From Nitrospirota bacterium (lineage in GTDB: Bacteria; Nitrospirota; JACRHL01), in assembly GCA_029881725.1 (NCBI GenBank), contig JAOUMB010000017.1:1-51984 (forward strand): a stretch of DNA of 51,984 nt. Reading direction: 5' to 3'. A program made the position numbers and the translations under genes. Positions 16,624 to 27,580 of this stretch are shown here, piece after piece. Position 1 is the first letter of the stretch. Every line of letters begins with the position of its first letter. The notes below the pieces were generated by a model. The model had not been told where the DNA came from and did no database searches. It saw only the letters and a list, made by a program, of their open reading frames with translations.

Positions 16624-17706
16624 CTACCCCGCCGCCGGATAGTCCGTATACCCCTTCTCCCCCCCCGTATAAAACGTATCCGGGTCGGCTTCCGCCAAGG
16701 GGATGCCCTCCTTCAGCCGCCGCACCAGATCGGGGTTGGCGATGAACGGCACGCCGAACACCACCCCGGCCACGTTGGCCACCCGGTCCGCCAGGGCCAA
16801 AGCGGCGCGTTCCGCCGTGTAACCCGCGTTGATCAGCACCCGCCCGCCGAATACCCGCGCCATGTCACGGGTGAGCTGCTGCGGGCCGGGGGTGGGCGAG
16901 GGGGCGCCCATCTCGTTTACGTGCATGTAGGCAATCCGGAAACGCGCCAGCTGTTCCGCCGTATTGCGGAAGGTAATGCCGGGGTTGCGGTCGCTCATGC
17001 CGTTGAACGGGTTCCAGGGGGACAGGCGCACCCCGGTGCGGGCCGCGCCCACTTTTTCCGTTACCGCGCGGGTGATCTCCATCAGCAACCGGCCCCGCCC
17101 CGCCGGGCCGCCGCCCCAGTCGTCCTCACGGAGGTTGGTGCCGGTGCGCAAAAACTGGTCGGGCAGGTAGCCGTTGGCGCCGTGCACCTCCACGCCATCC
17201 GCCCCCGCCCGCATGGCCCGCTCAGCGGCGTTTTTGTAATCGGCGATGACGGCCTCGATGCCCGCCTCGTCCAGCGCCAGCGGGGTCTCGAACGGCTGCA
17301 TGGAAAAATCGGCGGCCATGACTTCCCCCGCCGGGGTGATGGCCGAGGCCGACACCGGCGTTTCACCGATCAGCGACGAATGGCCGATGCGCCCGGTATG
17401 CATCAGTTGCAGCACAAAGCGCCCGCCGGCCCGGTGCACCGCGTCGATCACCTGCCGCCAGCCCGCCTCCTGCGCGTCGTTCCAGATGCCGGGCATGAGC
17501 GGATAGCCCGCCCCCTGACGGCACACCGCCACCGCCTCGGAGATGATCAGCCCGGCACTGGCCCGCTGGGTGTAATAGGTGGCCACGCACGGCTGCGGCA
17601 CCCCGGAGGCATCCGCCCGGTTGCGCGTCATGGGGGCCATGACCACGCGGTTGTTCAAGGGGATGTCCCCCACCTGATCCGCTTCAAACAGGGTCGGCTC
17701 GCTCAT
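16624..17706 (-). CDS. Old yellow enzyme family alkene reductase (NemA-like)
   Basis: A 360-residue FMN-dependent TIM-barrel oxidoreductase that reduces activated C=C bonds or nitro groups with NAD(P)H. Landmarks are NRVVMAPMTRNRADASG at the N-terminus, the FVLQLMHTGRIGHSS block, GADGVEVHGANGYLPDQFLR with the substrate-binding H and N, VGVRLSP-type TGVRLSPWNPFN, and the phosphate-binding FGGRVLINAGYT. Length and order match the NemA/xenobiotic reductase branch. ATG 17706 has GAGGAG in front; an in-frame GTG/ATG a few codons upstream lies inside the terminator. Physiological substrate is not predictable. The preceding terminator leaves only about 20 bp for an own promoter. Confidence 0.9.
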   Translation of the reverse strand: MSEPTLFEADQVGDIPLNNRVVMAPMTRNRADASGVPQPCVATYYTQRASAGLIISEAVAVCRQGAGYPLMPGIWNDAQEAGWRQVIDAVHRAGGRFVLQLMHTGRIGHSSLIGETPVSASAITPAGEVMAADFSMQPFETPLALDEAGIEAVIADYKNAAERAMRAGADGVEVHGANGYLPDQFLRTGTNLREDDWGGGPAGRGRLLMEITRAVTEKVGAARTGVRLSPWNPFNGMSDRNPGITFRNTAEQLARFRIAYMHVNEMGAPSPTPGPQQLTRDMARVFGGRVLINAGYTAERAALALADRVANVAGVVFGVPFIANPDLVRRLKEGIPLAEADPDTFYTGGEKGYTDYPAAG

Positions 17707-17728
17707 TCCCGGCTCCTCTGCCAATGAC

Positions 17729-17768
17729 AAAAACCCCGCCCGCCGAAGGATTGGCAGGCGGGGTTTTT
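17729..17768. terminator. Bidirectional terminator downstream of pheT
   Basis: The 12-base arms 17729-17740 (AAAAACCCCGCC) and 17757-17768 (GGCGGGGTTTTT) are exact complements around a 16-base loop. Read on the minus strand it gives a GC stem followed by five U residues after pheT. Confidence 0.8.
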
Positions 17769-17823: not shown

Positions 17824-19509
17824 CTATGCCGCGGAGAGGGCGTTCAGGTCGATTTCGAACGCCACCGCGGGCACGGTAATGCCCCAGTTTTCCAGCACCT
17901 CCGGCGACAGTTCGCCAATGATGCCCACCGACTCGCGCCCCACCACAATGCGTCCGGCGCGGCCGGGGATATAGGAGGCGTGATCCACCCCCTCCAGCCG
18001 GTATTCCGTGTTCAGATAGAAGAACAGCATCTCCAGCTTGGCGGTCAATTCCGAGAAATTGGCCTCCGCGTGGGCCAGCAGCGCCGCCAGTTGCACCCGG
18101 GTCTCGCTGCCCATGGGGGCGTCCGCCTGGGGAATGGCCACCTCGCCCACTTCGAACAGGGCATGGGGATAGAACGCCCGCCCGCTCTGCTGCTCCATCT
18201 TCAACAGGGACGGCAGCACCGCGTTGCGCAGCACGCTGTAGGAGGCGGTCATCACGTTGGAGACCGACACCAGCTTGGCGCCGTGCAGTTCCATGTGATC
18301 GGTCAGTTCCTCGCGCCCCACCAGAATGTTGGACAGCACCTCCTGAAAGCCCAGCCCCACCATCTGCTCGCGCACCCGGTCGGAATATTTTTCCAGCGGC
18401 AGCAGGCCGCCCACGGTGAACTCGGCGGGCAGTTCGGCGGCAAACGCGTCGTAGCCACGGGAAATGGCGAAATCCTCGATCACGTCCACCGGGTGCAGAA
18501 TGTCGTCCCGGTAGGGGGGAACCGTCACCTCCACGCCGCTCGCTGCGGTACGGGCCTGATACCCGTATGCGGTAAGGGCCTTTACCAGTTCCTCCACCGA
18601 CACGTCCTCGCCCAGCACCCGGCGGAAGGCGGGGAGCGTTACCGCCTGCACCCGCTCCAGGTGACGCGGCATCACCACCGTGCGGCCGAATGGGGTCTCT
18701 TCCGGAAACACCACCTCCACCGGATCGATGGACGCGCCCCGGTCGGCCATGTTGGCGGCCAGCAGGTTGATCACCATGGTCACCATGCGCAGGTCGGTGC
18801 CGGTCACCTCGATGAACAGTTCGCTGTCGCCCACCTGCACCTCGCCCACCTGCCGGCTGTTGATCACCGGGGGGAAGGAGAGCACCGTGTCCGCATCGTC
18901 CACCAGCAACGGCCACTGGGCGTGGCGCGACACGATCGGCGCATACTGCTGCCCCTTGGGGTGCATTTCGGCAATCTGGCTCAGGGTCAGCGGCTCATCC
19001 ATGCCCAGGGGCACAAACGCCGCTTCGGAGGGGGACACGCCCTTGTAGTGGAGCGGAAACTTCAGGCCCGAGGCGTCGTAGATGCCGATGGCGATGCTGC
19101 GCCGCTTGCGGCCGTAAACGTCGCACACCTTTTCCTGGGTCTGGATCAACTGGGTCAGCAGCGTGTCGTCCACCGTCACCCCGCGCGAAATGCAGGCGCC
19201 GATGTAAGGACGCACGCCGCTTACGCTGGCATCCACAATCACCTGCCGCTCGGCGGTCCGGGGGGCAAAGAAGTCATACCCCTTGCCGCTTCCCTCCCGA
19301 TGGGCCACAAGCTGGCGGCAGATGCCCTCCACACACCACAGGTCGGGCCGGTTGGTGTCGTTCAGTTCCACGCGCATTTCGCCGGTGGCGGCGTCCACGT
19401 CGTCCAGTTCGCCCTTCACCAGTTCCAGCAGGCGTTCAAACTCGTCCGCGTCAAACGGGATCCCCAGCAGGGTTTCGAGGTCTTTGCGGTGTACGGTAAT
19501 GGTCGGCAT
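17824..19509 (-). CDS. pheT: Phenylalanyl-tRNA synthetase beta subunit, archaeal/eukaryotic type
   Basis: A 561-residue subunit of PheRS. Bacterial PheT is normally about 790 residues with an N-terminal tRNA-binding (EMAP-like) domain and a C-terminal anticodon-binding domain. This one is the short archaeal/eukaryotic form: it begins MPTITVHRKDLETLLGIPFD, has the NDTNRPDLWCVEGICRQLVA block, the B3/B4 editing region (YIGACISRGVTVDD), the B5 region and a catalytic-like core (KYSDRVREQMVGLGFQEVLS). No EMAP-like domain or C-terminal ferredoxin-like domain is present. The ATG at 19509 has AGGGAA in front. It follows pheS by 11 bp and is the last gene of the def operon. Confidence 0.92.
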   Translation of the reverse strand: MPTITVHRKDLETLLGIPFDADEFERLLELVKGELDDVDAATGEMRVELNDTNRPDLWCVEGICRQLVAHREGSGKGYDFFAPRTAERQVIVDASVSGVRPYIGACISRGVTVDDTLLTQLIQTQEKVCDVYGRKRRSIAIGIYDASGLKFPLHYKGVSPSEAAFVPLGMDEPLTLSQIAEMHPKGQQYAPIVSRHAQWPLLVDDADTVLSFPPVINSRQVGEVQVGDSELFIEVTGTDLRMVTMVINLLAANMADRGASIDPVEVVFPEETPFGRTVVMPRHLERVQAVTLPAFRRVLGEDVSVEELVKALTAYGYQARTAASGVEVTVPPYRDDILHPVDVIEDFAISRGYDAFAAELPAEFTVGGLLPLEKYSDRVREQMVGLGFQEVLSNILVGREELTDHMELHGAKLVSVSNVMTASYSVLRNAVLPSLLKMEQQSGRAFYPHALFEVGEVAIPQADAPMGSETRVQLAALLAHAEANFSELTAKLEMLFFYLNTEYRLEGVDHASYIPGRAGRIVVGRESVGIIGELSPEVLENWGITVPAVAFEIDLNALSAA

Positions 19510-19520
19510 AAATTGATTCC

Positions 19521-21080
19521 CTACACGCCGCCACGGGTGGTGCGGATCAGGTCCAGGTCACTGGAGAACAGGTCGCGAATGTCGTGGATGTTCAGGGCCA
19601 CCATGGCCATCCGGTCCAGTCCCAGGCCCCAGGCGATCACCGGCTCGCTGATGCCCATGGGGCCGGTCACCTCCGGCCGGAACAGCCCGGCGCCGCCCAG
19701 CTCGATCCACCCCAGCTTGGGGTGCTTGGCGTGCATCTCCACACTCGGCTCGGTAAACGGAAAATAGGCGGGCACGAATTTCACCTGGTCCGCCTTGGCC
19801 ATCTCGTGGGCGAACATTTTCAGCATTCCCAGCAGGGTGCGGAAGTTGATCTGCTCGCCCAGCACGATGCCCTCCACCTGGAAGAAGTCCGGCGCGTGGG
19901 TGGCGTCCACCTGATCGTAGCGGAAGCAGCGGGCGATGGAAAAATACTTGCCCGGAATGTCCGGCCCCTCGGACAGCTTGTGGGCCGAGTCGGCGGTACC
20001 CTGGCTGCGCAGCACCAGCCGCCGGGACTGCATCTCGCGGAACTTGTAGTTCCATCCGGTGGAGCCGGTGTCGCCACCGTCCGCGTGCACTTTCGCCACG
20101 TTGGAGAAGAACGGCTCCTCCACCGGCTTGCTGTGCTTGGGATCGGCCACGAAGTAGGCATCGTGGATGTCCCGCGCCGGGTGAAACTGGGGCATGAACA
20201 GGGCGTCGTTGTTCCAGAATTCGTTCTGCACCAGGGGCGAGGTCATCTGCTGGAAGCCCATGGCCACCATCTTGGCCTTGATCTGGTCCAGATAGGCCCG
20301 GTACGGGTGTTTGCGGCCCACCGCCACCCGCGGCGGCTTGAGGTTGATGTTGTAGCGGCGGAACGCCTTGCCCTTCCAACTGCCGTCCGCCAGGATTCTG
20401 GAGGTGAGCTGGCCGATCTCCTCGATCTGGGCACGGTCCTTGAGCAGCGCCGCCACCTCGGAGCCCAGACGGGACAGCACATAGGTACGGGTGCGGTGCT
20501 CGTCCACCCGGAACACCCCCTTGGACTTGCCCCGCTTGCGGTGCAAGCCGTCCAGCGCCTGCTGCTGCTCTTCCGGCAGCGTGGCCTGATCGACGGTTCC
20601 CTCCGAGGCGACCTGGGCGATCAGCGCGCCAACCCGCTCAAACTGCGCCAGATCGGCACCGGGCACCATTTCCAGGGCGCCCCCCTTGCCGCTGGTGATG
20701 ACCGCCGCCTTTTTGAGCGCGCCCACGGCGGTACCGGCCTCGGATTGCTCCATCTCCAGGGCTTCCGACAGGGATGCCATGGTCAACTCGCGCCCGGCGG
20801 TCAGCGCGCCGATGATGCGGGCCTCGGGGGTGCCACCGGAGGCATAGCGCTGGCCGGTTTCGGTCAGGCTGACCGTGTGCGCCACCGATTCGTGGGCACA
20901 TTCGATGATGGATTTTTCGGCCAGCCAGCCACACGCCATGTCGCGCCGCGCCGGGTCCATCTGGGCCGCTTCGGCCAGTTCCGCGTCGGTAGCCTCACGG
21001 GCCTTGACCAGCGCCTGGATGACCGCCACTTCCAGCGGGTGCAGGCTGGAAACCAGGGATTCGGGATCGGGAAGGGTCAT
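19521..21080 (-). CDS. pheS: Phenylalanyl-tRNA synthetase alpha subunit, archaeal/eukaryotic type
   Basis: A 519-residue catalytic subunit that charges tRNA-Phe. It is much longer than typical bacterial PheS (about 330-350) because residues 1-200 form tandem winged-helix-like domains (LHPLEVAVIQALVKAREATD; MDPARRDMACGWLAEKSIIE) in place of the bacterial N-terminal coiled coil. That arrangement is the archaeal/eukaryotic type. The class II core follows: HPYRAYLDQIKAKMVAMGFQ, FHPARDIHDAYF, FREMQSRRLVLRSQ-type motif 2 and motif 3 near GLGLDRMAMVALNIHDIRDL. ATG 21080 has no good ribosome site. Similar PheRS is known in spirochaetes, so horizontal origin is a reasonable inference. Confidence 0.92.
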   Translation of the reverse strand: MTLPDPESLVSSLHPLEVAVIQALVKAREATDAELAEAAQMDPARRDMACGWLAEKSIIECAHESVAHTVSLTETGQRYASGGTPEARIIGALTAGRELTMASLSEALEMEQSEAGTAVGALKKAAVITSGKGGALEMVPGADLAQFERVGALIAQVASEGTVDQATLPEEQQQALDGLHRKRGKSKGVFRVDEHRTRTYVLSRLGSEVAALLKDRAQIEEIGQLTSRILADGSWKGKAFRRYNINLKPPRVAVGRKHPYRAYLDQIKAKMVAMGFQQMTSPLVQNEFWNNDALFMPQFHPARDIHDAYFVADPKHSKPVEEPFFSNVAKVHADGGDTGSTGWNYKFREMQSRRLVLRSQGTADSAHKLSEGPDIPGKYFSIARCFRYDQVDATHAPDFFQVEGIVLGEQINFRTLLGMLKMFAHEMAKADQVKFVPAYFPFTEPSVEMHAKHPKLGWIELGGAGLFRPEVTGPMGISEPVIAWGLGLDRMAMVALNIHDIRDLFSSDLDLIRTTRGGV

Positions 21081-21128: not shown

Positions 21129-21812
21129 TCACAGCCCGGCACGCAGGGCGCTGATCGACGCCTTGTAGTCCGGCGCGTTAAACACGGCGGAGCCGGCCAC
21201 GAACACCTCGGCTCCGGCCCCGGCCACTTCGGCGATGTTGTCCGCCTTGATACCGCCATCCACCTCGATGTAGGTGGACAGCCCGCGGGCATCGATCATG
21301 GCCTTCAGGCGGCGGATCTTGTCCAGGGCGCCGGGGATGAATTTCTGGCCCCCAAAGCCCGGATTCACGCTCATGATCAATACCATGTCCAGATCCGGCA
21401 GAATTTCGCCCAACGTTTCCACCGGCGTGGCCGGATTGATGGAAACACCGGTCATCACCTTGCGCCCCGCCTTCGCCCCTTCCTCGCGGATCAACTGCAC
21501 CGTGCGGTGCAGGTGCGGGCACGCCTCCTGATGCACCGTCACGCAGTCGGCACCGGCCTCGATGAACTCGCCGATATACTGGTCCGGGTTGGTAATCATC
21601 AGGTGACAATCCAGGGGCAGATCGGTCACCTTGCGCACCCACTCCACCACCACCGGGCCGATGGTCAGGTTGGGCACGAAATGGCCGTCCATCACGTCCA
21701 CGTGGATCACATCCGCCCCCGCGGCCTCCACGGCGGCCACCTCATCCGCCAGGCGCGCGAAATCGGCGGACAGAATGGACGGCGCAATCAGCTTATGATC
21801 CTTGGTAAACAC
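21129..21812 (-). CDS. rpe: Ribulose-phosphate 3-epimerase
   Basis: A 227-residue TIM-barrel enzyme that interconverts ribulose-5-phosphate and xylulose-5-phosphate. Family landmarks are IAPSILSADFARL, VIHVDVMDGHFVPNLTIGP with metal-binding H and D, DCHLMI, VLIMSVNPGFGGQKFIPGAL and the phosphate-binding EVDGGIKADNIAEV. The start is GTG 21812, seven bases after GGGAG; an upstream in-frame reading from 21965 crosses into rsmB and is not family-like. The gene lies 31 bp after rsmB and 48 bp before pheS. Confidence 0.94.
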   Translation of the reverse strand: MFTKDHKLIAPSILSADFARLADEVAAVEAAGADVIHVDVMDGHFVPNLTIGPVVVEWVRKVTDLPLDCHLMITNPDQYIGEFIEAGADCVTVHQEACPHLHRTVQLIREEGAKAGRKVMTGVSINPATPVETLGEILPDLDMVLIMSVNPGFGGQKFIPGALDKIRRLKAMIDARGLSTYIEVDGGIKADNIAEVAGAGAEVFVAGSAVFNAPDYKASISALRAGL

Positions 21813-21843: not shown

Positions 21844-23298
21844 TCACGACCGCCGCACCAAATGGACCCCAAAGAACGCGGCGGGCGCCACCCGGGGTGA
21901 CAAACGGGGGGTGGGCCGTGGTGGTTCAGCGTCACCGTCACCGGCCCGCGGAGGCGGATCGCCACCTTCCGGCAGGGCGCGTGAGGTATCCAGATACCCC
22001 TCCGGGGAGATCCACGGGGCCGCCTCCGGCCCCAGCAGTTCGCCCGCCGGACGCACGGAAAACTCCGGGTGGTTCGCCAGAAAGGCCGTCACCTGGGCGG
22101 CGGTTTCCTCCGGTTCCCCGGTACAGACCGCATACACCAGCACCCCCCCCGGCTTGACCATGGGCGCCAGGTGGCTCAGCAGATCCCGCTGGGCAACGCC
22201 GCAGGACCGGATACCCGCCTCACTCTTCCACCACTTGCCTTCCGGGTTGCGGGACAGGGTGCCCAGGCCGGAGCAGGGGGCATCCAGCAGAATGCGGTCA
22301 AATGGCCCGTTCAGTTGCGGCATGGAGACCACGCCGGCGTCGGCGATGACCACCTGAACATTGTCCGCCCGCATGCGCTCCAGGTTCCGGTGCAGCCGCT
22401 CCGCCCGGCCCGGATCCCGCTCCACGGCCACCACTTGACCGGTCGGTCCAACCATTTCGGAGAGCTGCTGGCACTTGCCTCCCGGCGCGGCGCAGGCGTC
22501 CAGCACCCGCTCCCCGGGGAGCGCCGCCACCAGCCGCCCGGCCAGCTGGCTGGAAGGATCCTGCACCACGAAGGCACCGCCCGCGTACCCCGGCAGGTCG
22601 GTCACCCGGACCGGACCGGAAATCCCTACGGCGGCGGGCAGATAGGGCAGCGGAAGCGCTTCCGCCCCCATATCCATGCATTCCCTGACGAATCGGTCCA
22701 CTTCCCGGTCCGCCGCCAGCCGCACGGTTAATGTCGGGGCGGATGCGGCCTGACGGGCGCGGGCCTCGGCCCTCTGCGGACCCTCATCCCGCCACCAGCG
22801 CTGCGCCAGCCATGGGGGCAACGACCATTCGGCGGCCAGCCGTTCGGGCCCCTGGGCCGGCAAGGCGGGCTCCCCCTCCCGCGCGAGCCCCCGCAGCACG
22901 CCGTTCACGAAGCCTCGGCGGCGGGGGTTGCCCGCCAGTTTCACGGTTTCGTTCACCGCCGCGTTGGGGGGAATGGCGTCCATGAACAGGAGTTGATACG
23001 CCCCCAGCCGCAGGCAGGTGCGCACGTTGCGGTCCAGATCCTTGAGGGGCCGCCCGGTGCGGGCACGGATGGCGTGGTCGAGGCGAAACCGCCAGCGCGC
23101 CACACCCCATGCGAGTTCCGCCGCCAGCCGCCGGTCGCGGGGGTCCCAGCCCGGCGTGTCGAGTGTCCGGTCCAGTTCCGCCGCCAGGTCGAACGGCTCC
23201 CGGTCCAGCCGTGAAAGCAGCAAAAAAGCGGCACGCCGGGGGTCGTTACGCCCCGGACGGCCGCTATTTCCAGGCAAATCCGGCCCGGGTCCGGGCAT
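21844..23298 (-). CDS. rsmB: 16S rRNA cytosine-967 C5-methyltransferase RsmB
   Basis: A 484-residue enzyme with a NusB-like N-terminal RNA-binding domain (about residues 18-150: RRAAFLLLSRLDREPFDLAA; RTCLRLGAYQLLFMDAIPPN) and a C-terminal SAM methyltransferase. Catalytic landmarks are VLDACAAPGGKCQQL for SAM binding and LLDAPCSGLGTLSRNPEGKW with the PC motif; VYAVCTGEPEE stands where VYSTCS-type motifs usually occur, keeping its cysteine. The C-terminal 50 residues are Pro/Arg-rich and extra. ATG 23298 follows AAGGGG and lies 9 bp after the htpX stop. Confidence 0.93.
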   Translation of the reverse strand: MPGPGPDLPGNSGRPGRNDPRRAAFLLLSRLDREPFDLAAELDRTLDTPGWDPRDRRLAAELAWGVARWRFRLDHAIRARTGRPLKDLDRNVRTCLRLGAYQLLFMDAIPPNAAVNETVKLAGNPRRRGFVNGVLRGLAREGEPALPAQGPERLAAEWSLPPWLAQRWWRDEGPQRAEARARQAASAPTLTVRLAADREVDRFVRECMDMGAEALPLPYLPAAVGISGPVRVTDLPGYAGGAFVVQDPSSQLAGRLVAALPGERVLDACAAPGGKCQQLSEMVGPTGQVVAVERDPGRAERLHRNLERMRADNVQVVIADAGVVSMPQLNGPFDRILLDAPCSGLGTLSRNPEGKWWKSEAGIRSCGVAQRDLLSHLAPMVKPGGVLVYAVCTGEPEETAAQVTAFLANHPEFSVRPAGELLGPEAAPWISPEGYLDTSRALPEGGDPPPRAGDGDAEPPRPTPRLSPRVAPAAFFGVHLVRRS

Positions 23299-23307
23299 CC
23301 CGGCCCC

Positions 23308-24165
23308 TTACGCCCGGCCCCAGGAGGCAGCCATCTGCTCCAGACGGGCCACGCGCTCCGCCATCGGCGGATGGGTGGAGAACAGGGCCGTGATACCGCC
23401 GCCACGCAGCGGATTGACGATGTACATGTGCGCGGTGGAGGGGTTCACGTCCATCGGCTGCACGGCTGTACCGCGCTCAAGCTTTTGCAGGGCGGACGCC
23501 AGCCACAGGGGGTTGCCGCAAATCTTCGCGCCGCCTTCGTCCGCGCCGTACTCCCGCGAGCGGCTGATGGCCATCTGCACCAGCATGGCCGCCAGGGGCG
23601 CAAGAATCATCATCAACACCATCACCAGCGGATGCGGCGCGTTATCACCATCCCGGTGGCCTCCACCGAAGATCATCGCCCACTGGGCCATGTTGGCCAG
23701 CATGGAGATGGCCCCGGCCATGGTGGCGGCAATCGTGCCGACCAGAATATCCCGGTTGCCCACATGGGCCAGTTCATGGGCCATCACCCCGGCCAGTTCA
23801 TTGCGGTCCAGAATCCGCATGATGCCGGTGGTGGCCGCCACCGCCGCATGGCTCGGGTTGCGGCCAGTGGCGAAGGCGTTGGGTGACGGGTCGTCGATGA
23901 CGTACACCTTGGGCATCGGCAGGCTGGCGCGGGTGGCCAGTTCCCGCACAACGGAATACAGTTCCGGGGCTTCCGCCTCGGTCACCTGACGGGCGTGGCT
24001 CATGCGCAGCACGATCTTGTCGGAATACCAGTAAGCGCCCACGTTCATGATCAGGGCGAACGCCAGAGCGATCATCATTCCGCCCTGGCCGGCCAGCATG
24101 CCGCCTCCATACACCAGGATCAGGGTCAGAACGGTCAGCAGAAAAGTCGTTTTCATTACGTTCAT
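23308..24165 (-). CDS. htpX: Zinc metalloprotease HtpX
   Basis: A 285-residue inner-membrane M48 protease that degrades damaged membrane proteins. Two N-terminal spans (about 4-24 and 30-50), the catalytic helix [13 protein letters not shown] (HExxH), further spans near 150-170 and 195-215 and the downstream EYGADEGG zinc ligand motif are all visible. [20 protein letters not shown] matches the HtpX activity region. ATG 24165 has GAGGAA about eleven bases upstream; ATG 24156 is possible. Insertion of htpX between fmt and rsmB is found in several proteobacteria. Confidence 0.94.
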
Positions 24166-24276: not shown

Positions 24277-25212
24277 TCAGGGGGCGGCCAACACGGCACC
24301 CGCCTCGACGCGGGTACCATTCAAAAAATCCCTCGCGCTCATGGCGCGCTTGCCGGGCACCTGCACTTCCAGAATGCGCACCGTGCCGTTTCCGGCGGCG
24401 ATCAGCAGGCTGTCGCCGTCCACCCGCAGGATGGTGCCGGGCACCGCCCCTCCGGCCTCCGCCTCGCCCACCCTGGCTCCGGTAATCTTCCACGGAGTGC
24501 CCGCATATCCCGTGTGGCTTCCCGGCCACGGCACGAATGCGCGAATCCGGTTGACCACCTCCGTGGCGGAGCGCTCCCAGTGGATGATGCCGTCCTCCTT
24601 TTTGAGGATCGGCGCCAAGGTCGCGACTGCGTCGTCCTGGGGCACGGGCTTCAACCCCTCCCCCACCCGCCGCAGGGTATCGACGATCAGCGGCCCGGCC
24701 AGCTCCCCCAGCCGCTCGGTGAGGGTGACCGCGTCATCCCCCGCCCGGATCGGAGTCACCGCCGTCAGGTAGGTCGCTCCGGTGTCCATCCCGGCATCCA
24801 TCCGCATGGTGGTGAGCCCGGTTTCGGCCTCTCCGTTGGCAATGGCCCAGTTGATCGGCGCCGCCCCCCGGTACTTTGGCAACAGGCTGGCATGGATGTT
24901 TATGCATCCGAATTTCGGGATGTCAAGGAGTGCCTGAGGCAATATCTGGCCAAAGGCGATAACCACGGCGGCGTCCGGCGCCAGTTCCCGGAACCGATCG
25001 ATAAAATCCGGCTCCCGCACCCGGTTCGGCTGCAACACCGGAATCCCCAGGGAAATGGCGGTTTCCTTGACCGCCGACCGGGTCACCTTGCCGCCACGCC
25101 CCTTGGGACGGTCCGGCTGGGTGACCACGGCGACCACCTGGTGCCCGGCCCCCACCAGATCCATCAGCGACGGAACCGCGATGCGCGGCGTGCCCATGAA
25201 AACCAGACGCAT
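24277..25212 (-). CDS. fmt: Methionyl-tRNA formyltransferase
   Basis: A 311-residue enzyme that formylates initiator Met-tRNA. The start MRLVFMGTPRIAVPSL at ATG 25212 is the classical Fmt N-terminus and follows GGAGAG; the frame extends upstream into def but that part is not conserved. The catalytic core has the formyl-THF site block GCINIHASLLPKYRGAAPIN (N, H and D of the hydrolase-like fold) and MDAGMDTG, and the C-terminal domain follows (GGAVPGTILRV). It is 31 bp downstream of def, the usual pair. Confidence 0.96.
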   Translation of the reverse strand: MRLVFMGTPRIAVPSLMDLVGAGHQVVAVVTQPDRPKGRGGKVTRSAVKETAISLGIPVLQPNRVREPDFIDRFRELAPDAAVVIAFGQILPQALLDIPKFGCINIHASLLPKYRGAAPINWAIANGEAETGLTTMRMDAGMDTGATYLTAVTPIRAGDDAVTLTERLGELAGPLIVDTLRRVGEGLKPVPQDDAVATLAPILKKEDGIIHWERSATEVVNRIRAFVPWPGSHTGYAGTPWKITGARVGEAEAGGAVPGTILRVDGDSLLIAAGNGTVRILEVQVPGKRAMSARDFLNGTRVEAGAVLAAP

Positions 25213-25243: not shown

Positions 25244-25756
25244 TCAGGCGTCGCCCCGGGCCTGCAGTTTTTTGAAACGGCGGATAAACATGCCCCGCTT
25301 GAGAGGGCTGAGGCGCTCAATAAACAGAATGCCGTTCAGATGGTCGGTTTCGTGCTGAAACATGCGCGCCAGCAGCCCGGTGGCGTCCACCTTGATCGGG
25401 TTGCCGCTCCGGTCCCGGGCCTCCATCACCACCCGGGCGGAACGCTTCACCGCCGCCGTATAGCCGGGCACGGACAGGCACCCCTCCTCGTCCGACTCCT
25501 CCCCCTCCATGAGGGTGAACTTCGGATTGCACACCACCCCCACCCGCTCATGGTCGCGGGACACCTCCAGGTCGTATACAAACAGTTGCAGGTCCACGCC
25601 GATCTGGGTGGCCGCCAGGCCGATACCCGGTTCGTCCCACATGGTATCGGCCATGTCGGCAATCAGTTCGTCCAGTGCCGGACCGAACTCCGTCACCGGC
25701 TTCGCCACCCGTTTCAGGAACGGGTCCGGATATGTAAGAATTTCGCGTATCGGCAT
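25244..25756 (-). CDS. def: Peptide deformylase
   Basis: A 170-residue metalloenzyme that removes the formyl group from nascent proteins. All three motifs are intact: GIGLAATQIG (residues 44-53), EGCLSVP with metal ligand C93, and QHETDHLNG with H135, E136 and H139. It is the first gene of the def-fmt-htpX-rsmB-rpe-pheS-pheT operon. A TAAAAT at 25766-25771 (minus strand) lies only 9 bases before the ATG and no ribosome site is visible, so the transcript may have almost no leader; the -35 is poor. Confidence 0.96.
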   Translation of the reverse strand: MPIREILTYPDPFLKRVAKPVTEFGPALDELIADMADTMWDEPGIGLAATQIGVDLQLFVYDLEVSRDHERVGVVCNPKFTLMEGEESDEEGCLSVPGYTAAVKRSARVVMEARDRSGNPIKVDATGLLARMFQHETDHLNGILFIERLSPLKRGMFIRRFKKLQARGDA

Positions 25757-25906: not shown

Positions 25907-27580
25907 ATGTCGAGCCATAACCCCTTTTACCAGGCCGTGCAGGACCATTTTGCCCCACGACCGATCCACCTGCTGATCGTACTGGACGGCTTCGGTCTGG
26001 GCACCAAGCCGGAGTGGGACGCAATCCGATCCGCCAACGCCCCGCATCTGGAGCGCCTGTTTTCGGGCAGCCCATGGGCACGCCTGGCCACCCACGGCCC
26101 CTTTGTGGGCCTGCCCGCCGCCAAGGACCTGGGCGGCTCGGAAGTGGGACACTTGACCATGGGCGCCGGACAGATCCTGGATCAGGGCCCCACCCGCATC
26201 AACAACGCCATCGCCGACGGCTCCTTCTTCCGCTCCCCCGCGCTGATGGAACTGATCGAGCACTGCGCCGGCACCGACCATGCCCTGCACCTGCTTGGCC
26301 TGCTGTCCGACGGCAACATCCACAGCCACATCGACCACTTTGAAGCCATCATCCGCCATGCGGATGCCAGCGGGGTGCGCCGCCTGTACCTGCACGCGCT
26401 GCTCGACGGGCGCGATGTGGGAATCCAGAGCGCCCTGGACTACACGGAACCCATGGAGGCGCTGCTGGCCGACATCTCCCGCAAGGAGAATCGGGACTAC
26501 CGCTTTGCTTCCGGCGGCGGGCGGGAAGCCATCACCATGGACCGGGACCACAATTGGGACCGCATGAAAACCGGGTGGGACGCGCACGTGCACGGTCGCG
26601 CGGCGCGCACCTTCGGCAGCATGGGAGAAGCCATCGCCACCCTGCGTGCCGAGACCAAAGGGATCGTCGATCAGGACCTGCCGCCGTTCGTGATCGTGGA
26701 CAAGGGCCACCCGGTGGCCCTCATCCGCGATGGTGACGCGGTGATCAACGTAAATTTCCGCGGCGACCGGGTGATCCAGATTTCCCGCGCCTTCACCGAG
26801 ACCGACTTCGACGGGTTCGACCGGGAAGGCACCCCGGACGTGCTGTACGCGGGAATGATGGTGTACGACGAGGACACCAACCTGCCGGAACGGCAGCTCA
26901 TGGGCCCCACCAAGGTGGAAAACCCGTTCGGGCGGCGCATTCTGGAGGCGGGCATGCGCCAGTTCCGGCTGGCCGAAACCCAGAAATTCGCCCACGTCAC
27001 CTTCTTCTTCAACGGCGGCTACCGGCTGCCGCTGGATCCGCGCATGGAGGATTACGAGTTGATCGCCTCGGACAAAGGCATCCCCTTCGACCAGGCACCC
27101 CAGATGAAGGCTCCGGAAATCGCCGCCCGCGCCTGCGAACTGATCCGGGGGGGACAGCACCGCTTCGGCCTGATCAACTTCGCCAATACCGACATGGTGG
27201 GCCACACCGGCAACTTCCGCGCGGCGGTTGCCGCCACCGAGGCGGTGGACCGGGCGCTGGGGCAGATCATGGGCGCCCTGTCGGAAGTGGGTGGCACCGC
27301 GCTGATCACCGCCGACCACGGCAACGCGGACGAAATGCTGGTGACCAACAAAAAGGGCGAGGCGGAGATCTCCACCAAGCACTCGCTCAATCTGGTTCCG
27401 GCCATTCTGTTCGACCCCACCCCCTTGGCGGGAATTGCCCTGCGCCGCCCCCGGCCGGAAGACGGCACCTTTGACACCCCCGGCCTGTCCAACGTGGCGG
27501 CCACCAACTTTCTGATGCTCGGACAGACGGTACCGGAAGAACTGCAACCGCCCCTGATCGTGCCTGCTGGAAACGGATGA
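25907..27580 (+). CDS. gpmI: 2,3-bisphosphoglycerate-independent phosphoglycerate mutase
   Basis: A 557-residue dimanganese phosphoglycerate mutase that interconverts 3- and 2-phosphoglycerate. D27 (IVLDGFG) and the nucleophile S78 (GGSEVGHLTMGAG) form the first metal site. The phosphotransferase insert carries SDGNIHSHIDH and LHALLDGRD, with INVNFRGDR at its end. The final metal ligands are in INFANTDMVGHTGNF and TADHGNADEM, with a late histidine in TKHSLN. It is slightly longer than the E. coli enzyme (514). It is divergent from def and 1 bp separates it from the DUF5069 gene. Confidence 0.95.
   Translation: MSSHNPFYQAVQDHFAPRPIHLLIVLDGFGLGTKPEWDAIRSANAPHLERLFSGSPWARLATHGPFVGLPAAKDLGGSEVGHLTMGAGQILDQGPTRINNAIADGSFFRSPALMELIEHCAGTDHALHLLGLLSDGNIHSHIDHFEAIIRHADASGVRRLYLHALLDGRDVGIQSALDYTEPMEALLADISRKENRDYRFASGGGREAITMDRDHNWDRMKTGWDAHVHGRAARTFGSMGEAIATLRAETKGIVDQDLPPFVIVDKGHPVALIRDGDAVINVNFRGDRVIQISRAFTETDFDGFDREGTPDVLYAGMMVYDEDTNLPERQLMGPTKVENPFGRRILEAGMRQFRLAETQKFAHVTFFFNGGYRLPLDPRMEDYELIASDKGIPFDQAPQMKAPEIAARACELIRGGQHRFGLINFANTDMVGHTGNFRAAVAATEAVDRALGQIMGALSEVGGTALITADHGNADEMLVTNKKGEAEISTKHSLNLVPAILFDPTPLAGIALRRPRPEDGTFDTPGLSNVAATNFLMLGQTVPEELQPPLIVPAGNG

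Follow-up and report, generated by a model that had tools for sequence, protein, structure and literature searches.

An archaeal/eukaryotic-type phenylalanyl-tRNA synthetase as the sole PheRS of a Nitrospirota bacterium, and its distribution and gene order in the phylum

Replacement of the bacterial phenylalanyl-tRNA synthetase (PheRS) by the archaeal type has been described in Spirochaetaceae (Borrelia, Treponema, Spirochaeta) by Andam and Gogarten in 2011 (PMC3191353). The alpha subunits of these spirochaetes are 513–528 aa and the beta subunits 514–573 aa long, and the sister families keep the bacterial type. The phenomenon is thus already published for spirochaetes. The results below show that the trait is also real in Nitrospirota and is not unique to the genome studied here. 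The search of the open-access literature (subscription journals lay outside it) found no report of archaeal-type PheRS in Nitrospirota and the further phyla named below, nor of the gene-order trace or the unchanged tRNA. The exchange concerns an essential translation enzyme and presumably crossed the boundary between domains; roughly half of the Nitrospirota genomes sampled retain the acquired form, in a phylum to which the nitrite-oxidising and comammox Nitrospira belong. The pheS gene is in use as a universal phylogenetic marker (PMC3636077), and its replacement would mislead such use for Nitrospirota.

The pheST locus and its two subunits

The window analysed is a stretch of 51,984 nucleotides from a Nitrospirota draft genome (GCA_029881725.1, contig JAOUMB010000017.1). 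NCBIfam profiles gave the gene order def-fmt-htpX-rsmB-rpe-pheS-pheT, with 11 bp between the pheS and pheT ORFs (Table 1). The pair closes this series, in agreement with the preliminary description, which had proposed integration into a translation operon. The GC3 values of pheS (0.88) and pheT (0.86) are like those of the neighbours (0.81–0.92), indicating that the genes are not recent arrivals. Rfam at gathering thresholds matched nothing in the window, and we accordingly propose neither a T-box nor a leader.

Table 1. Features in and around the pheST operon of the window
Feature	Product or description	Position	Strand	Length	Basis and remarks
ORF	NADH:flavin oxidoreductase (old yellow enzyme-like)	16624-17730	-		By eye from translation; beyond pheT and the terminator-like site
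Hairpin	Terminator-like, with T tail, just past pheT	17734..17748	-		Possible operon end; number of terminator-like sites in the region not clearly above chance
pheT	Archaeal/eukaryotic-type PheRS beta subunit	17824..19509	-	561 aa	NCBIfam, Pfam, AlphaFold model
pheS	Archaeal/eukaryotic-type PheRS alpha subunit	19521..21080	-	519 aa	NCBIfam, Pfam, AlphaFold model
rpe	Ribulose-phosphate 3-epimerase	21129..21812	-		TIGR01163; start codon not fixed, listed ORF runs to 21965
rsmB	16S rRNA m5C967 methyltransferase	21844..23298	-		TIGR00563 over cut-off
htpX	Zinc metalloprotease	23308..24165	-		NF002826 over cut-off
fmt	Methionyl-tRNA formyltransferase	24277..25212	-		TIGR00460; ORF listed from 25320, family match from residue 37
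def	Peptide deformylase	25244..25756	-		NF001159 and TIGR00079; first operon gene
gpmI	Divergent from def	25907-27580	+

PheT consists of B1, the B3/B4 editing domain, B5 and a catalytic-like module. Its residues 1–558 aligned end to end with the archaeal model TIGR00471 pheT_arch (positions 1–550 of 551), with 509.1 bits against a cut-off of 282.65 (E = 1.3e-152). The bacterial model TIGR00472 pheT_bact gave 131.6 bits, far below its cut-off of 402.65, and the match was limited to model positions 410–691 of 798, the catalytic-like part of PheT. Pfam detected the PhetRS B1 domain, B5 and the catalytic-like module and found neither the EMAP-like B2 nor the anticodon-binding B8 domain. The catalytic-like module ends at residue 555 of 561, leaving no sequence for either of them. 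The closest solved relatives by sequence were P. horikoshii and eukaryotic cytosolic enzymes, with the bacterial ones ranking lower. The AlphaFold model of PheT (pLDDT 91) matched 2cxi, the N-terminal fragment of P. horikoshii PheT, with a TM of 0.94 by target length and an rmsd of 2.0. The top five structures were 2cxi and eukaryotic cytosolic PheT chains, which ranked above all bacterial chains.

The archaeal editing site has an Asn (Asn217 in P. horikoshii, Asn238 in human) where bacteria have a His (PMC3275996). This Asn is present in the window's PheT as N217. S211, N217 and E234 of the editing site were invariant in 27 aligned archaeal-type PheT from bacteria. The B3/B4 site would hydrolyse Tyr-tRNA-Phe. 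Both the catalytic and the editing parts are laid out as in the archaeal/eukaryotic enzyme.

PheS comprises three N-terminal winged-helix-like modules and a class II catalytic domain. NF003210 (archaeal PheS, PRK04172) matched it end to end with 554 bits (cut-off 350, E = 2.5e-166). Fungal, human and Plasmodium cytosolic enzymes were the closest solved relatives by sequence, followed by bacterial ones. The AlphaFold model showed the three modules at residues 15–202 with high confidence. Winged-helix modules at the N-terminus are a described trait of archaeal/eukaryotic alpha subunits (PMC3275996), and in this PheS they may take the tRNA-binding role that B8 and the coiled coil have in the bacterial enzyme. 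The profile and model results bear out the preliminary description as to the archaeal/eukaryotic type of the pair, the winged-helix-like domains of the 519-residue PheS and the absence of EMAP-like and C-terminal domains from the 561-residue PheT.

The best and only full-length structural match of the PheS model was human 3l4g_C. The catalytic domain was modelled with low confidence and was therefore judged by sequence. The Phe pocket motif AYFPFTEPS lies within residues 438–468 and includes Phe440-Pro-Phe442, to which F467 is added; the motif varies little or not at all among bacterial archaeal-type PheS. Phe440-Pro-Phe442 resembles the T. thermophilus enzyme (Phe258, Phe260), whereas the human enzyme has Asn410-Pro-Tyr412 at this place. 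F467 corresponds to human Phe438. Judged by these residues, the Phe pocket of the window's PheS is mixed relative to the human enzyme. The catalytic domain would make Phe-AMP and Phe-tRNA.

A single PheRS and a tRNA-Phe with the bacterial identity set

The genome is a 2.96 Mb draft of 126 contigs with 98.35% completeness. Profile searches of this 98.35% complete assembly found a single PheS, and nothing scored above the cut-off for bacterial-type PheT. A weak second match to pheT_bact elsewhere in the genome spans model positions 45–122 only, and weak matches to these positions also occurred in other genomes without bacterial PheT. The infC-rpmI-rplT cluster is situated on a different contig from the window. 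The gene 20 bp past rplT is not pheST and encodes a 931-aa EpsE-like polysaccharide export protein (L020 2938–5733 and 5754–6104, G000:C20). The archaeal/eukaryotic-type PheRS is the sole, replacing enzyme of this genome and not an extra copy; the extra-copy reading was rejected on the single PheS and the lack of a bacterial-type PheT over the cut-off. The replacement of the bacterial form, proposed earlier with a check of the full genome for a second pheST, is upheld by these searches. The EpsE-like gene fills the spot where other Nitrospirota have the bacterial-type pheST.

The tRNA-Phe of the genome is GCCGAGATAGCTCAGTCGGTAGAGCAGAGGCCTGAAAAGCCTCGTGTCCACAGTTCGATTCTGTGTCTCGGCACCA (L137 1462–1537, G000:C110), the only match in the genome. 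It carries U20, U45, U59, A26, G44 and A73. These nucleotides belong to the bacterial tRNA-Phe identity set listed in a review (PMC9976931). The review gives G20 for archaea and eukaryotes, the archaeal assignment being based on A. pernix. The tRNA-Phe counts cover the genomes that matched the tRNA pattern, some genomes having given no match. All matching Nitrospirota of both PheRS types had U20 or, in a few archaeal-type genomes, C20. The same holds for archaeal-type genomes with a tRNA-Phe match among the spirochaetes and those labelled Planctomycetes, Gemmatimonadota, Latescibacterota, Armatimonadetes and Deltaproteobacteria. A switch of tRNA-Phe to G20 along with the enzyme was seen in none of the tRNA-Phe matches found.

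The tRNA-Phe retains the bacterial set with U20, although the characterised archaeal/eukaryotic PheRS use G20, which suggests that the enzyme adapted rather than the tRNA. The enzyme would then charge a tRNA-Phe of the retained bacterial identity set. We tentatively propose, at somewhat less than even chances, that several bacterial phyla have members relying on archaeal-type PheRS alone with a bacterial-identity tRNA-Phe (U20, U45, U59), and that the bacterial clade of this enzyme evolved a mode of recognition that is neither the G20-based one of archaea and eukaryotes nor the bacterial one through B8 and the coiled coil. If true, such a mode breaks the reported orthogonality of the two PheRS-tRNA-Phe systems. 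Since the tRNA-Phe stayed bacterial, these lineages are natural test cases for a synthetase adapting to a foreign tRNA identity set.

Distribution and gene order in Nitrospirota

The replacement is not an event of the window's lineage. The pheT_arch cut-off was passed by 158 of 296 Nitrospirota genomes, and the split runs along whole families. Carriers include Nitrospira, Manganitrophus and family f10 (member G020), which is probably Leptospirillum. The nearest named matches were Nitrospira, Manganitrophus and other Nitrospirota. The family of the window (f1) has three further genomes with a PheT identity of 69–76%. Two of them (L106, L107) have the order def-fmt-htpX-rsmB-rpe-pheS-pheT followed by dapD/dapC, and complete Nitrospira chromosomes (L039, L053) carry the pair. 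A draft of 126 contigs could hold archaeal genes on a contig wrongly binned into a bacterium. This reading has a negligible probability and is refuted by the position inside a bacterial operon, the GC3 shared with the neighbours, the f1 relatives and the complete chromosomes.

Beyond Nitrospirota, archaeal-type PheRS was found in spirochaetes, Latescibacterota and single MAGs labelled Planctomycetes, Gemmatimonadota, Deltaproteobacteria and Armatimonadetes. None of 14 named archaeal-type genomes from several phyla had a bacterial PheT over the cut-off, and the replacement is thus complete in every genome looked at. The plasmids searched gave no match to archaeal PheRS, and pattern matches on viral contigs were not confirmed. 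Phage matches to PheT covered the C-terminal half only, with 24–27% identity, as expected for bacterial-type PheT. A MAG labelled Nitrospinota (L049 3503–8861) has its PheST inside the Nitrospira group, the gene order of Nitrospira and rplT nearby; from this position and gene order its label is probably wrong. The uncultured bacterium RUG13696 (L082 4438–7650) carries a very divergent archaeal-type pheST on a long branch.

In bacterial-type Nitrospirota, rplT-pheS-pheT was co-directional in five of eight loci (L110, L111, L112, L113, L118), with infC-rpmI preceding rplT where visible. The remaining three had no rplT in the stretch covered. The PheT of L110, L112 and L118 was confirmed over the pheT_bact cut-off. 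These proteins (699–726 aa) aligned with the bacterial model from roughly position 156 onwards only and, by this alignment, seem to be a shortened bacterial type without the EMAP-like B2.

In archaeal-type Nitrospirota, rplT-rpmI-infC is convergent on pheT in 33 of the 37 named loci for which 1.5 kb or more of downstream sequence was available. The rpe gene lies directly upstream of pheS in 33 of the 35 named loci with enough upstream sequence, and the archaeal-type pheST extends the fmt-rsmB-rpe operon in most lineages of the phylum. The operon had earlier been called typically proteobacterial; the gene order stands, but the host belongs to Nitrospirota, where rpe-pheS-pheT is common. In a genome of the same phylum (G054) the match lies at C1:360019–361725, which are the coordinates in Ca. 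Nitrospira defluvii FP929003. Family f10 (L101, L102, L105) has the convergent rplT and no rpe. The window's locus has dapD/dapC in place of an rplT neighbour. None of the 29 archaeal-type loci that carry the labels Spirochaetota, Latescibacterota, Planctomycetota, Myxococcota, Gemmatimonadota or Armatimonadota had a convergent rplT.

The archaeal-type pheST lies at the same end of rplT but inverted, and this suggests a single ancient replacement at the site of the native genes. In the simplest reading of the gene order, the archaeal-type pair would have entered the rplT-adjacent place of the bacterial-type pheST once, in inverted orientation, and become part of the rpe operon on the line to Nitrospiria and f1; in most lineages it would continue fmt-rsmB-rpe. 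Family f1 would later have lost the link to rplT, with dapD/dapC now adjoining. In the rplT neighbourhood, gene order preserves a record, rarely available, of the way such an exchange took place.

The PheT tree was rooted with a eukaryotic outgroup, and the archaea were represented by one P. horikoshii PheT fragment (348 aa). Families f1 (support 100) and f10 and the Spirochaetota each formed one clade. P. horikoshii fell between the eukaryotes and the bacterial archaeal-type cluster (SH-aLRT 93), a placement to be read with caution given the long branches and the sole archaeal sequence. In the concatenated tree f1 was a clade with 100/100, and the branches tying it to other Nitrospirota were weak (32/67 and 41/88). 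Family f10 was placed outside the other Nitrospirota in the best concatenated tree with low support, and the constraint of all Nitrospirota including f10 to one clade was not rejected (p-AU 0.32). A single origin within Nitrospirota is compatible with the trees, which alone do not establish it; gene order is the stronger argument.

The weakly supported Nitrospirota clade would also suit several acquisitions, in which f1, Nitrospiria and f10 separately obtained pheST from bacteria already carrying it, and the position beside rplT arose by homologous exchange or coincidence. The window's PheT is 46–48% identical to that of MAGs labelled Planctomycetota, Gemmatimonadota and Myxococcota, as high as to many Nitrospirota (44–54%), and the upstream context differs between f1 and f10. 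However, the inverted placement at rplT is common to f10 and Nitrospiria and absent from all other phyla examined, rpe-pheS is common to f1 and Nitrospiria, and one clade including f10 is not rejected. We consider several acquisitions unlikely, at about one chance in four in our judgement.

An archaeal-type PheRS that was ancient in early bacteria, kept in some phyla and replaced elsewhere by the bacterial type is still less probable. Such differential loss would agree with the occurrence in records labelled as several bacterial phyla and with their grouping apart from P. horikoshii. The distribution is nevertheless patchy among the families of one phylum, the bacterial-type families keep the standard rplT-pheS-pheT order, and Bacteria as a whole generally have the bacterial type (PMC3275996, PMC3191353).

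Very probably, then, the only PheRS of this cell is an (alpha-beta)2 enzyme of archaeal/eukaryotic type, which displaced the bacterial form early in Nitrospirota, no later than in the ancestor shared by the Nitrospiria-like and Leptospirillum-like families and f1, and took the rplT-adjacent place in inverted orientation. The clade is presumably of archaeal ancestry; the family definition and, for spirochaetes, PMC3191353 are the basis for the direction and donor of the transfer.

Comparison with known systems

Nitrospira, Ca. Manganitrophus and f10 (probably Leptospirillum) have the same protein families and the same replacement as the window. The order rpe-pheS-pheT occurs in most loci of Nitrospira and Manganitrophus, as in the window. 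These three groups have the convergent rplT-rpmI-infC beside pheT, whereas the family of the window has dapD/dapC, and their PheT is 40–54% identical to that of the window.

The PheRS of Spirochaetaceae resembles that of the window in its archaeal type, in the lengths of both subunits and in having replaced the bacterial form. The spirochaetes belong to a different phylum, their PheT identity to the window is approximately 40–43%, and no linkage to rplT or rpe was seen in them. The P. horikoshii (2cxi) and human (3l4g) enzymes have the domain layout, the PheT fold and the editing Asn217 in common with the window, and P. horikoshii PheT is 36–37% identical to the window's PheT. The archaeal/eukaryotic cytosolic PheRS use G20, whereas the enzyme of the window would serve a tRNA-Phe with U20.
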